A stretch of 64,000 bases of DNA from assembly GCF_014268585.2 (NCBI RefSeq), contig NZ_CP077092.1:5121501-5185500 (forward strand). Reading direction: 5' to 3'. Source of the DNA: Pseudomonas iranensis. Lineage in GTDB: Bacteria; Pseudomonadota; Gammaproteobacteria; Pseudomonadales; Pseudomonadaceae. The notes beneath the pieces were generated by a model. That model was not told the origin of the DNA. It was given only the letters and a program-made list of their open reading frames with translations, and searched no databases. Position numbers and translations under genes: made by a program. Position 1 is the first letter of the stretch; each line of letters starts with the position of its first letter. Positions 38,859 through 41,735 of this stretch are shown in pieces.

Positions 38859-38888
38859 TCTGATATTTGTGCTGTAGCGGATGTCGCT

Positions 38889-38960
38889 TTCGCGAGCAGG
38901 CTCGCTCCCACAGGTTTGGGTTCTACACAAATCCAATGTGGGAGCGAGCCTGCTCGCGAA
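38889..38960. repeat. REP-type inverted pair
   Basis: Inverted perfect copies of the GTGGGAGCGAGCCTGC element at 38889-38912 and 38937-38960, between convergent genes, where the hairpin could serve as a bidirectional transcript end. Confidence 0.92.
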
Positions 38961-38992
38961 GAGGCCAGCACAAGCACCATCGCTTTCCGATG

Positions 38993-39232
38993 TCAGCGCT
39001 TGCCCATCGACCGACGCGTGCCCGGCGGCGCCATGCCCGGGGTTTTGGTGTGGCCATTCTTCGCGCCATTCTTGTACCACGGCTGATTCGAGCCTTTCGC
39101 CGAAGCCAGCTCGCCCGGCTTGAACGGGAACTTGAACGCCGGGATCTCGGCCTTGGTTTCGCTGGCGTCAGCCACTTCAGCCGGGACGTCGCTCACAGCG
39201 TCGTCAACCGGTGGTTGGGTCGGGGAAGTCAT
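38993..39232 (-). CDS. Small hypothetical protein, disordered
   Basis: Protein of 79 residues with no signal or membrane helix. The N-terminal half (PPVDDAVSDVPAEVADASET) is acidic and low-complexity. The C-terminal half ends KNGAKNGHTKTPGMAPPGTR-RSMGKR and is basic. It looks intrinsically disordered. Similar short proteins are common in Pseudomonas as far as I recall; function unknown. Confidence 0.65.
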   Translation of the reverse strand: MTSPTQPPVDDAVSDVPAEVADASETKAEIPAFKFPFKPGELASAKGSNQPWYKNGAKNGHTKTPGMAPPGTRRSMGKR

Positions 39233-39371
39233 AAAAGCTCCGGGAACAAAAAGTCGGCCCGATCAGAGAGCCGCAAAGGCGCGCAGTATACCTGTGCGCT
39301 CTGGCTCGGCATCTGAAGATTTGCGCGATGCGCTGAATGGCTGCCTGGCACTGACACTGCGTGATGATATT

Positions 39372-39791
39372 TCAGTTCATGCGATGCTGAACGTCACTCA
39401 ACAATTGCGAGGTGCTCTCCAGCAACTGCTCAAGAAGCGCGTCATCTTCATCCATATAGCCTTCATATTCGGCGAGATTGCGCCGCTCGTGGCATAGCGC
39501 AAACAATCGCACCTGAACCTTGCTGCTTTGAGTGGTATGGATCAGGCACTGGAATACCAGATAGCGCTTGTCCGATCGATAGCCACTCAAGCGAAGAGCT
39601 GTCAGCGCCAGCGCGTGAGCGGCGTTGTAGGCCAAATCGAACCGGCTGGAAAACGACAGTGTGCAAGTGTGCGCATCCTTGAGCCTGTCCAAAGCCGATC
39701 GCATCAGACCTTCACACTCCTTGCGGTCAGGTGGCTCCGCTTTCAGTACACCGCTACGTAGAAGATTCTCCAGACTCTCGTTGCTGCCCAT
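39372..39791 (-). CDS. HEPN-like protein, putative effector of MNT module
   Basis: All-helical protein of 139 residues resembling HEPN domains: helix pattern RFDLAYNAAHALALTALRLSG (about 50-70, key residues D52, Y55, H59) and the later ALCHERRNLAEYEG (about 99-111). Classic HEPN toxins carry R-x4-6-H; here the site is R103-R104-N105...E108-Y109, so the histidine is absent. Its first 38 bases overlap the nucleotidyltransferase gene, indicating coupling. In known pairs the HEPN protein is the RNase toxin; here that activity is uncertain. Confidence 0.72.
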   Translation of the reverse strand: MGSNESLENLLRSGVLKAEPPDRKECEGLMRSALDRLKDAHTCTLSFSSRFDLAYNAAHALALTALRLSGYRSDKRYLVFQCLIHTTQSSKVQVRLFALCHERRNLAEYEGYMDEDDALLEQLLESTSQLLSDVQHRMN

Positions 39792-40383
39792 CCTTGGACT
39801 CCAAAGGGTTTGCCCCTGACAGATCGATTTTTTCCTGCTGCATCACTCGCATGACAAAACTGTTCTGTGCCGCCAGCTTCCTGGCCCAGTCTTGCGGGGT
39901 GTATAGCGTCGGGTTGATGGGACGCCCCAATTGCTCCTCCAACGGCATGAGTCGCTCCATCAACTCACTGTAGTGCAGACCTTCGCCAATCAGCATGAGA
40001 TCTATGTCACTGAGTGTGTTCGCCGAGTTTTTGGCGATGGAGCCATACACAAACGCCCACGTGATCTGTTCGGCAAACGGTTCTAATGCCTGACGAAGAG
40101 GCTCGGCAAAACCGAATGTCTTGCGCGTGATGCCCAGAAGCTCCGCGTAAATAGGACATGCGGGATTGGCCTGGTAATGGGTCTGGTTACCCACTCGAGT
40201 CATGCTGAGGATCCCGGCTCTTTGCAATCGATCGAGTTCACGCATCAGGCCGCCTTTGCCAACCTGTGCCCAGCGCACAATTTCGTTGGCGTAGAACGTC
40301 TGGTCAGGCTTGCCGAACAACAATCCCAACACTTTTTGCTGGGTGGCGGTGAACAGGGCTTCGCTTAAAGAAAGGTTTTCCAC
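39754..40383 (-). CDS. Winged-helix/minimal nucleotidyltransferase fusion, putative antitoxin
   Basis: Protein of 209 residues with a GTG start at 40383 (VENLSLSEALFTATQQKVLGL); no clear ribosome site is seen and no other start lies nearby. Residues about 1-85 form a winged helix (TFYANEIVRWAQVGKGGLMRELDRL). Residues about 105-165 are a minimal nucleotidyltransferase with G114-S115 and D126-x-D128 (FVYGSIAKNSANTLSDIDLM). The third acidic residue seems replaced (INPTLYTP). MNT partners of HEPN toxins neutralise them, in some cases by AMPylation. G+C is lower than in flanking genes. Confidence 0.78.
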   Translation of the reverse strand: MENLSLSEALFTATQQKVLGLLFGKPDQTFYANEIVRWAQVGKGGLMRELDRLQRAGILSMTRVGNQTHYQANPACPIYAELLGITRKTFGFAEPLRQALEPFAEQITWAFVYGSIAKNSANTLSDIDLMLIGEGLHYSELMERLMPLEEQLGRPINPTLYTPQDWARKLAAQNSFVMRVMQQEKIDLSGANPLESKDGQQRESGESST

Positions 40384-40399
40384 TGGCGCAAACCGAAGA

Positions 40400-40435
40400 G
40401 TCCCAAAACAGGAACGATAGGTCCCTTTTAGGGAC
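40400..40435. promoter_or_regulatory. Two operator-like palindromes, 21 bases apart
   Basis: GTCCC-AAAACA-GGAAC (40400-40415) and the perfect GTCCC-TTTTA-GGGAC (40421-40435) lie just upstream of the winged-helix/MNT gene. Their left ends are exactly 21 bases apart, two helical turns, so proteins would bind the same face. They probably serve the gene's own DNA-binding domain for autoregulation. This is inference from symmetry and position. Confidence 0.6.
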
Positions 40436-40522
40436 TTATCAACTCAACGGTAATCGCAGCCAGAGCAATTAACGTCGGAAACTGACAATCCTGACAGCCA
40501 GGCGTCACCCTGCCGACCGCCT

Positions 40523-40541
40523 GACCGGTTTATAACTGGTC
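40523..40541. promoter_or_regulatory. Palindrome upstream of the RND operon
   Basis: GACCGGTT-TAT-AACTGGTC is a near-perfect inverted repeat (one mismatch pair) 33 bases before the adaptor ATG. It could be an operator or part of the promoter for the efflux operon. No -35/-10 pair is obvious. Confidence 0.4.
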
Positions 40542-40574
40542 AATCTGCCCAAACTCCAGACTTCGGCGCCGCGC

Positions 40575-41735
40575 ATGTCCATCCAGAAAAACAAAATCCT
40601 GCTGGCCACTCTCCTGATTCTGCTGGCAGCCGCCGGCCTGTGGTTCGCGCTCAAGCCAGCGCCGACCAAACTGGCCAGTCCGACCGCCATCCCGGTACGC
40701 GTCGTAACGGTCAGCGCCAAAGACGTGCCGCGTTACACCAGCGGCATCGGCTCGGTGCTGTCGCTGCACAGCGTGGTGGTGCGTCCGCAGATCGACGGGA
40801 TCCTGACGAAAATTCTGGTCAAGGAAGGTCAGCTGGTCAAAGCAGGCGACCTGCTCGCCACCATCGACGATCGCTCGATCCGCGCCAGCCTCGACCAGGC
40901 CCGGGCGCAGTTGGGCGAGAGTCAGGCGCAGTTGCAGGTCGCGCTGGTCAATCTCAAGCGCTACAAACTGCTCAGCGTCGACGACGGCGTATCGAAACAG
41001 ACCTTCGACCAGCAGCAAGCGCTGGTCAATCAGCTCAAAGCCACCGCGCAAGGCAATCAGGCCTCGATTGATGCGGCGCAGGTGCAACTGTCCTACACGC
41101 AGATTCGCTCTCCGGTTACTGGGCGCGTCGGTATTCGTACGGTCGATGAAGGCAACTTCCTGCGCATGACCGACACCCAAGGCCTGTTCACCGTCACGCA
41201 GATCGACCCGATCGCCGTCGAGTTCTCCCTGCCGCAGCAGATGCTGCCGACCCTGCAGAGTCTGATCAGCGATCCGCAACGCGCCCCGGTCAAGGCGTAC
41301 ATCGGAGCCGATACTGATGGCGAAACCGGCAATCTGCTCGGCGAAGGTCAGCTGACCCTGATCGACAATCAGATCAACGCCAACACTGGCACCATCCGCG
41401 CCAAGGCCGAATTCGCCAATGCCAGCCAGAAGCTCTGGCCGGGTTTGCTGGTGACGGTAAAAATTCAGACGGCTGTGGATAAAGATGCGCTGGTGGTTCC
41501 GCCCACCGTCGTACAGCGTGGCCTCGAACAACACTTTGTTTACCGCGTGAAGGACGACAAGGTCGAGGCGGTGCCGGTGCAAATGGTTTATCAGGGCAGC
41601 GGCCAGGACATCATCAAAGGTGTCAACGCTGGTGACGTCCTGGTGACCGATGGCCAGTCGCGACTCAAACCGGGCTCGAGCGTGCAAGTCATGAGCGAGC
41701 CAGCGCAAGTGGTGCAGGCGGAGCCGAAGCCATGA
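40575..41735 (+). CDS. RND efflux periplasmic adaptor (MdtA-like)
   Basis: Membrane-fusion protein of 386 residues. An N-terminal hydrophobic anchor (LLATLLILLAAAGLWFAL, about 8-26) without a lipobox cysteine is followed by the biotin-lipoyl half-motifs (VVVRPQIDGILTKILVKEGQ and SYTQIRSPVTGRVGIRTVDE), a helical hairpin (about 100-160) and beta-barrel. It connects the pump to an outer-membrane channel; none is encoded here, so a shared TolC/OprM-type protein is likely. The stop overlaps the pump start as ATGA. Confidence 0.92.
   Translation: MSIQKNKILLATLLILLAAAGLWFALKPAPTKLASPTAIPVRVVTVSAKDVPRYTSGIGSVLSLHSVVVRPQIDGILTKILVKEGQLVKAGDLLATIDDRSIRASLDQARAQLGESQAQLQVALVNLKRYKLLSVDDGVSKQTFDQQQALVNQLKATAQGNQASIDAAQVQLSYTQIRSPVTGRVGIRTVDEGNFLRMTDTQGLFTVTQIDPIAVEFSLPQQMLPTLQSLISDPQRAPVKAYIGADTDGETGNLLGEGQLTLIDNQINANTGTIRAKAEFANASQKLWPGLLVTVKIQTAVDKDALVVPPTVVQRGLEQHFVYRVKDDKVEAVPVQMVYQGSGQDIIKGVNAGDVLVTDGQSRLKPGSSVQVMSEPAQVVQAEPKP

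Follow-up and report, generated by a model that had tools for sequence, protein, structure and literature searches.

A mobile winged-helix nucleotidyltransferase/HEPN-fold gene pair in Pseudomonas iranensis, with a predicted self-operator and the layout of a toxin-antitoxin module

Introduction

In AbiE systems, the winged helix and the nucleotidyltransferase are separate proteins, AbiEi being a winged-helix antitoxin and repressor and AbiEii a nucleotidyltransferase toxin, and there is no HEPN partner, unlike what we propose below for the gene pair A-B. The AbiE operon is bicistronic and brings together a winged-helix autorepressor antitoxin and a pol-beta-type nucleotidyltransferase (PMC3985639; articles are cited here for those parts of them that concern the point made); in A, a winged helix and a nucleotidyltransferase domain are combined in one protein.

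HepT/MntA pairs, described in Shewanella (SO_3166/SO_3165, PMC7641770) and Legionella (PMC11586414), also possess the GSX10DXD motif, the HEPN fold and a conserved tyrosine, and in Shewanella the minimal nucleotidyltransferase (MNT) gene comes first and the HEPN gene second, as in A-B (PMC3710099). In contrast to HepT/MntA, A has an added winged helix and a predicted operator, its third catalytic Asp appears to be replaced, and B lacks the RX4HXY motif. A second group of relatives is formed by class II HEPN/MNT pairs (PF05168/PF01909; structures 2hsb and 9xbd), which provide the HEPN structures nearest to B by profile, 2hsb being also the nearest by fold. Like B, class II pairs retain the Tyr and have no RX4H at that place; the toxicity tests in the corresponding section of the same article are described for class I HEPN/MNT pairs (PMC7641770). 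The pair studied here differs from class II by the winged helix added to A, and by B falling under the Pfam HEPN cut-off.

Closest of all is the candidate defence family PDC-M05, a nucleotidyltransferase plus a HEPN-domain protein, which is enriched in archaea (59% of detected instances) and present in bacteria too, and whose antiviral role is still to be confirmed (PMC12988326). The portions of that article considered here do not mention an operator, a promoter, an order of decay or altered catalytic residues. In Burkholderia cenocepacia K56-2 under phage infection, PDC-M05A is among the defence loci with raised transcription, and the entire PDC operon is altered (PMC12584637). A literature search, by title or abstract start, found no report on the operator or autoregulation of such a pair; subscription papers lay mostly outside this search, so that absence is unproven. 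One candidate related pair (PMC10714953) turned out, from the part of the article considered, to be BrnT-like and unrelated.

Results

The gene pair is a member of PDC-M05

The window, i.e. the whole stretch of 64,000 nucleotides of the P. iranensis genome that was analysed, contains the following pair:

40383-39754, minus strand: gene A, 209 aa, GTG start; winged helix at about residues 1-90 and minimal nucleotidyltransferase at about residues 100-180; PDC-M05A
39791-39372, minus strand: gene B, 139 aa, ATG start; all-helical, predicted HEPN fold; PDC-M05B
39754-39791, minus strand: 38-base overlap between the end of A and the start of B, the same overlap being present in 48 of 80 related loci

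Both reading frames and the 38 bases that they share are as described in an earlier, sequence-only reading of this DNA. That reading had also seen in A a winged helix fused to an MNT domain, and this was borne out. Pfam searches with A gave Polbeta at 30.1 bits (cut-off 26.9) and NTP_transf_2 (PF01909) at 22.3 bits (cut-off 21), and the family profile of A matched ArsR/MarR-type winged helices as well as MNT structures in the PDB. With B, a Pfam search returned zero family matches. In the profile comparison of both proteins with the HEPN and MNT families, which had been proposed as a check, A matches the MNT family PF01909 above cut-off, but B stays below the cut-off of the HEPN family PF05168. 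The PF01909 match of A, together with a Tyr in B without RX4H at the motif place, are class II features.

With the PADLOC models, A was recognised as PDC-M05A (E 4.9e-88 over residues 1-197) and B as PDC-M05B (E 3.1e-64 over residues 4-137), the two models being matched by adjacent, overlapping genes. The pair is therefore a member of a catalogued candidate family, and not a new kind of system. Among named copies, those of Pseudomonas sp. Choline-02u-1 and P. siliginis are closest, with 99% identity in A. The Pfam matches of A, the PDC-M05A/B matches and the recurrence in other species all indicate that A and B are not a chance pair of open reading frames.

Relatives were collected as follows. 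A phylum-wide search with the PADLOC family matched 304 of 398 genomes, mostly through short MNT-only or HTH-only matches; 15 among the matches listed have E<1e-30, and only such matches were accepted as relatives, so that loci L048-L062 were dropped. A non-redundant set of 45 loci (A below 80% identity) was drawn from 150 loci, 80 of which had been chosen by A.

A predicted double operator overlaps the promoter and varies with the recognition helix

Two sites were found upstream of A:

40400-40435, minus strand: double inverted repeat GTCCC-5-GGGAC / TTCCT-5-GGGAC, with 6 bases between the two; predicted self-operator of A
40414-40442, minus strand: predicted sigma-70 promoter TTGATA-17-TATCGT, bracketing the first inverted repeat

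The centres of the two inverted repeats are 21 bp apart, and the whole site is 36 bp long. The promoter is the one promoter-like site found in a scan of 39300-40600, where 0.4 were expected from shuffles, and, counted from the centre of the first repeat, the best -10 element is at +6 or +9 in 25 of 34 relatives. Among the 150 redundant loci (80 chosen by A), the best double inverted repeat has a 21-bp period in 141, versus 37 of 150 in a control made of one plain shuffle per locus; the geometry used (period 21, spacer 5 or 7) was fixed after the data had been seen. Compared with 100 dinucleotide shuffles each, 38 of the 45 non-redundant upstream regions were significant at p<=0.05 and 31 at p<=0.01. 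An operator did not rise above its own shuffles in the 7 other loci of the 45 (L041, L043, L045, L047, L194, L195 and L197). Scores of at least 17 were reached in 34 of 45 loci, against 2 of 90 control regions taken inside A or further upstream, one of which scored 19.

The bases of the half-site follow the presumed recognition helix (helix 3) of A. Helix xGKGSLxR goes with GTCCC or TTCCC (GTCTC in L100), xGxGAVQR with ACCC or GCCC, GxGAVH with TTCCC (L196 and L200), GSASLQR with TGCCA or TGCTA, and xGTL with TGC- or TAGC-type sites. The sites of L036, L043, L173, L178, L193 and L195 escaped the automatic register and were read by eye, and no clear site is seen in L041 and L047. Operator distance and recognition-helix distance are correlated (r 0.61), and the correlation between half-site and recognition helix persists once MNT-domain distance is removed (partial Mantel r 0.40, p 0.0002, n=41, the 4 loci scoring below 16 being left out).

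The genome of the window (6.07 Mb) was scanned for the operator with at most 3 of 20 mismatches. It was found at one place, matched on both strands, and a reversed control pattern gave 0 and 3 matches, which implies that a lone 3-mismatch match in the genome would mean little. As the operator has this one place, a regulon in this genome was rejected. From the arrangement of operator and promoter, which is what such a protein should show, we infer an autorepressor of a single operon. Very probably, A silences its own operon by way of this double palindrome, which in distant relatives has varied together with the protein, and the earlier suggestion that A could serve as a repressor is thereby supported at the level of sequence. 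If the module represses itself, a rise in PDC-M05A transcription during infection, as described (PMC12584637, in the part cited), would be expected.

In 7 of 80 loci, additional operator copies with no more than 2 of 20 mismatches lie close to the module. Three Pseudomonas loci (L092, L095 and L098) have a second complete double operator, with 1-2 of 20 mismatches, which immediately precedes the first and stands at about -110 relative to the start of A. In three others the extra copy lies just behind B, at +1012 (L104) or +1056 (L105 and L112) from the start of A, and in L107 it is at -255, some 200 bp upstream, with flanking bases resembling those of L104. The copies in these last four loci may be the scar of an older copy of the module, or a decoy. 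L118 apparently retains about one half-site of the operator, immediately ahead of the start codon, and its B is broken as well.

The nucleotidyltransferase domain of A appears to lack its third carboxylate

Two places in the MNT domain deserve attention:

40000-40044, minus strand: GSX10DXD motif (residues 114-128 of A), kept by all 45 non-redundant relatives
39913-39915, minus strand: Asn157 codon of A; the profile alignment to 9xbd_E puts this residue opposite the third catalytic Asp of MNTs

In MntA, the third metal-binding carboxylate is D71 (PMC7641770, in the part cited). At the position of A that aligns with the third catalytic Asp, the 45 non-redundant relatives have N (41), S (2) or H (2), while Arg154 (45/45) and Pro158 (44/45) are conserved close by. 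Aligned by reading, Asn157 corresponds to the Asp of PVDLLDL in Pseudomonas MntA proteins; comparing A and MntA by profile gave an alignment of 36 columns, and the third carboxylate fell outside this aligned part. The MntA equivalog NF047752, a single-domain MNT, scores 24.6 bits on A versus a cut-off of 60. These alignments suggest that another residue has taken the place of the third catalytic carboxylate in A.

B is predicted to have a HEPN fold, with an altered motif

The AlphaFold2 model of B is all-helical, with a mean pLDDT of 95.1. When it was compared to the PDB with Foldseek, the best match was the HEPN protein 2hsb (TM 0.69/0.75, probability 1.00, E 9.7e-3), no PDB match reaching E<=0.001. 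Ranks 2 to 16 included a human sacsin HEPN domain, an archaeal HEPN homologue, HepT/MntA chains, 1wwp, which is listed as HEPN in the relevant part of PMC3710099, and 1ufb, whose structure title is silent on HEPN. A profile built from 40 B proteins, run against 177,635 PDB sequences, gave just two matches at E<=10, both of them HEPN proteins (2hsb and 9xbd chain A) and both weak (E 0.12 and 0.39; 0.014 and 0.16 with a 17-row profile). With PF05168, 2 of the 40 members match weakly, below cut-off (best E 0.0096), and the window's protein does not match; a genome search for PF05168 gave a match in 1 of 26 genomes. Taken together, profile, model and fold comparison point to a HEPN fold for B, as had been proposed from its helical character.

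The candidate active-site residues are the following:

39459-39482, minus strand: RN-x(3)-Y-x-G motif of B, residues 104-111, standing on the HEPN-motif place of class II structures in the profile alignment
39489-39509, minus strand: RX4-6H-type match of B, R95-x5-H101, immediately ahead of the RN motif, present in 30 of 40 relatives

In the 40-row alignment of B, R104, N105 and G111 are invariant and Y109 is present in 39 rows; two positions before the Tyr, within the RN-x3-Y-x-G context, stands A, G, S, I, T or E. The profile alignment places RN-x3-Y on the R..DY of 2hsb and 9xbd, and R95-H101 is not on that motif. None of the 40 relatives has an H at R104+5 to +7, which means that the RX4HXY of HepT is absent. 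As regards the preceding match, R95 with an H at positions 100-102 is found in 31 of 40 B proteins, the window's included, and R95 and/or H101 are absent in 9 of 40 (a sister group of L022, L023, L024, L037, L039, L041 and L047, plus L198 and L199). R95-x5-H101 could serve as an RNase site in some members of the family, or it could be structural. The folds and GSX10DXD agree with the analogy to known MNT-HEPN pairs drawn in the sequence-only reading; against a direct carry-over of their mechanism stand a B without RX4HXY and an apparently replaced third carboxylate in A.

The module is mobile

G+C content is 54.0% in A and 54.3% in B, compared to 61.1% in the gene of the neighbouring RND adaptor and 59.9% over the window. 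The contrast noted from single lines of sequence is real, but the line at about 72% quoted for the RND adaptor was atypical of this gene. In 77 of 80 related loci, the G+C of A is below that of the flanking DNA. The site is moreover empty in a close relative:

39341-40477: segment missing from relative G033, comprising the module, its promoter and about 30 bases on each side; flanks 95-97% identical

In G033, 218 other bases replace this segment. We conclude that the module is mobile, as it occupies several sites, is missing from its site in a close relative and has a lower G+C, and the transfer suggested earlier on the basis of G+C is upheld.

Small repeats and a short reading frame were seen around the site. 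The 218 replacement bases (locus L163, G033:C2) contain an inverted repeat, CTCCCTCTCC...GGGGAGAGGG, which is REP-like as judged by eye. Next to the module's site in the window, 38880-38960 holds inverted copies of a GCGAGCAGGCTCGCTCCCACA-type sequence, which we take to resemble Pseudomonas REP elements. On the minus strand at 38990-39232 lies a small open reading frame of about 80 aa starting with MTSPTQPPVDD, and a closely similar one is found downstream of the module in L003.

When the 80 loci and the window were clustered by single linkage of their 6-kb flanks, 17 upstream and 16 downstream clusters resulted, one locus per side being omitted for want of flank. The two largest had 50/47 and 10 members, the larger being possibly chained and the window belonging to the latter. 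The window's site beside the RND adaptor is common to 9 of 80 loci, as judged from shared flanking genes. A was matched in 18 of 72,556 plasmid records and in none of 50,697 phage records; viral contigs gave 45 and 78 pattern matches, none of which encodes a relative. A phage-borne element was rejected, as no phage record matched, and the rarity on plasmids and absence from phages lend little weight to an addiction or phage-borne role. In 4 plasmid copies examined out of the 18 records, B adjoins A each time, and 3 are near integrase genes. On a Cupriavidus plasmid (L200, NZ_CP032520.1, 328603-334172), the pair is directly beside a MazEF-type pair and near a phage-type integrase.

Ten neighbour proteins, out of 44 selected open reading frames from 12 loci, were compared with PADLOC at E<=1e-10. 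One of them matched, an Mrr-type nuclease beside L133, and a defence-island setting was rejected on this basis. Pfam named 6 of the 10 (EAL, RNase E/G, Mrr, glutathionylspermidine synthase, luciferase-like and MscS) and gave nothing for the other 4.

A and B recur together, and B appears to be lost first

B lies directly downstream of A in 42 of the 45 non-redundant loci, among which L185 and L189 hold parts of B only; no B was found downstream of A in L045, L046 and L122. The distances of A and B are strongly correlated (Mantel r 0.88, n=40, p 0.0002). The census suggested in the sequence-only reading thus shows a pair recurring together at different genomic sites. That reading had named two outcomes that would speak against it, a B without a HEPN fold and genes that do not co-occur, and neither came true.

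In 393 genomes of the genus, A was matched in 68 and B in 59 (this sample overlaps the 149-genome sample). A was intact in 65, i.e. the 68 minus the fragmented G123, G981 and G1058. Internal stops suspected in A of G063, G064 and G138 were dismissed, as they were the proteins' own ends. Among the 65 genomes with A intact, 45 have an intact B as well; in the other 20, B is damaged or absent:

A intact, B damaged or absent, first ten: G005, G020, G088, G120, G135, G138, G861, G893, G911, G915
A intact, B damaged or absent, second ten: G940, G944, G972, G1003, G1027, G1030, G1031, G1061, G1064, G1066

Lesions of B include an in-frame deletion (G861), an early stop (G020) and a stop near the start with a shorter frame open behind it (G120). 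In G028, G122 and G1054, a divergent B was counted as intact from partial alignments, and from ORF length for two of them; the status of most other intact B genes was judged from the table rows of the match listing. An intact B without an intact A was not found in the 393 genomes, the search for B having used close relatives, so that a divergent B without A could have escaped, and B lies 3' of A. Remnants of B without a match to A were seen in G838 and G844.

A is longer than B, and unselected damage should therefore strike A more often. The 20 losses of B share lesions and are not 20 independent events; for 10 independent losses, each with a length-weighted chance of 0.40, our own arithmetic gives a probability of about 1e-4. 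The operator was kept, with 0-3 of 20 mismatches, in all 18 scanned loci where A is intact and B damaged or absent, G020 and G944 being outside the scan; of the other two loci scanned, G1054, a divergent relative that has B, scored 7, and G844, where A is lacking, scored 8. Loss of B with A kept is the pattern expected if B harms cells that have no A, and the best reading of the gene pattern is that B would be a toxin and A an autorepressing antitoxin. That many genomes keep A without B may mean that A has a use of its own, or that the losses are young. Among the 80 named loci, B has an open reading frame of at least 120 aa in 66; these loci were chosen by A and hence do not test the order of decay.

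Discussion

The observation made in the sequence-only reading is confirmed, and its interpretation is partly supported and largely sound. We consider it probable that the pair is a self-contained, mobile module of the toxin-antitoxin type, in which A would repress the operon and neutralise B, a HEPN-fold growth inhibitor. Dimers of A would bind the two inverted repeats, two helical turns apart, on their own promoter, and bound A would repress the A-B operon, a step for which the sequence makes a strong case. Gene order, co-inheritance and decay pattern suggest that A also binds and neutralises B. Were A lost or titrated, for instance during phage infection, B would be released and the operon derepressed. 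Neutralisation would most likely occur by complex formation, possibly with a nucleotide at the GSX10DXD site; AMPylation of Tyr109 of B, in the fashion of type VII systems, is possible, and less likely because A appears to be missing the third carboxylate.

The same residues bear on the reading of the pair as a type VII system proper, where A would AMPylate Tyr109 of B using ATP, as MntA does on HepT, and B would be an RNase. GSX10DXD in all 45 relatives of A, the Tyr conserved at the HEPN motif of 39 of 40 B proteins, the nearby R-x5-H of 30 of 40 (window included), the HepT chains near B in Foldseek and the Tyr retained in published class II pairs (PMC7641770, in the part cited) all suit such a scheme. 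We nevertheless hold it to be unlikely, given a B that has no RX4HXY and in which R95/H101 is missing at one or both places in 9 of 40 relatives, and an A that apparently has the position of MntA D71 replaced in 45 of 45 and scores 24.6 bits when the MntA equivalog cut-off is 60. One may go further and suppose that neither type VII hallmark works, the nucleotidyltransferase domain of A, deprived of its third carboxylate, acting not as an enzyme but as a nucleotide-binding sensor that controls whether A binds its operator and whether a HEPN-fold toxin, active without a HepT-type RNase site, is set free. This we regard as decidedly unlikely; if it were true, the pairing of helix 3 and half-site would amount to a readable DNA-recognition code for the family. 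That the roles are reversed, A being a nucleotidyltransferase toxin of the AbiEii/MenT kind and B an antitoxin or substrate-binding partner, is highly improbable: A does have the active-site motif of these enzymes, and AbiE and MenT are published nucleotidyltransferase systems (PMC3985639 and PMC10435456, in the parts cited), but 20 of 65 genomes retain A although their B is damaged or absent, the converse was not found, and A stands first in the operon and carries the operator.

The retention of A and of its operator without B can also be read as the sign of a domesticated, nucleotide-sensing regulator, the HEPN-like B tuning its own expression or a small regulon, with no toxin pair at all. 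The altered catalytic signatures and the additional operators close to the module (7 of 80 loci) would fit with this, but the operator has a single place in the genome of the window, where no regulon is visible, and a patchy gene (68 of 393 genomes) found at several sites and with a low G+C is unlike a core regulator; we find this reading very doubtful. An anti-phage role by abortive infection, where release of B would abort the infection, is compatible with the toxin-antitoxin module that we favour, and would be its purpose. It is quite possible, if somewhat less than probable: the family is a PADLOC defence candidate with a patchy and mobile occurrence, and transcription of PDC-M05A rises during infection in one host (PMC12584637, in the part cited), but the direct neighbours are mostly not defence genes (1 PADLOC match in 10), and the antiviral role is described as unconfirmed in the passages of PMC12988326 that deal with it.

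What is new here is a predicted self-operator that changes with its protein, an order of decay that points to B as the toxin, and catalytic signatures that appear altered relative to the much-studied HEPN-MNT mechanism. If B were toxic, the pair would offer a worked example for class II HEPN proteins, the corresponding section of PMC7641770 describing toxicity tests on class I only. For PDC-M05, the toxin-antitoxin reading now provides a concrete hypothesis, which names B as the toxin, A as antitoxin and repressor, 40400-40435 as the operator, the bases that A would read in it, and the residues that would be altered.
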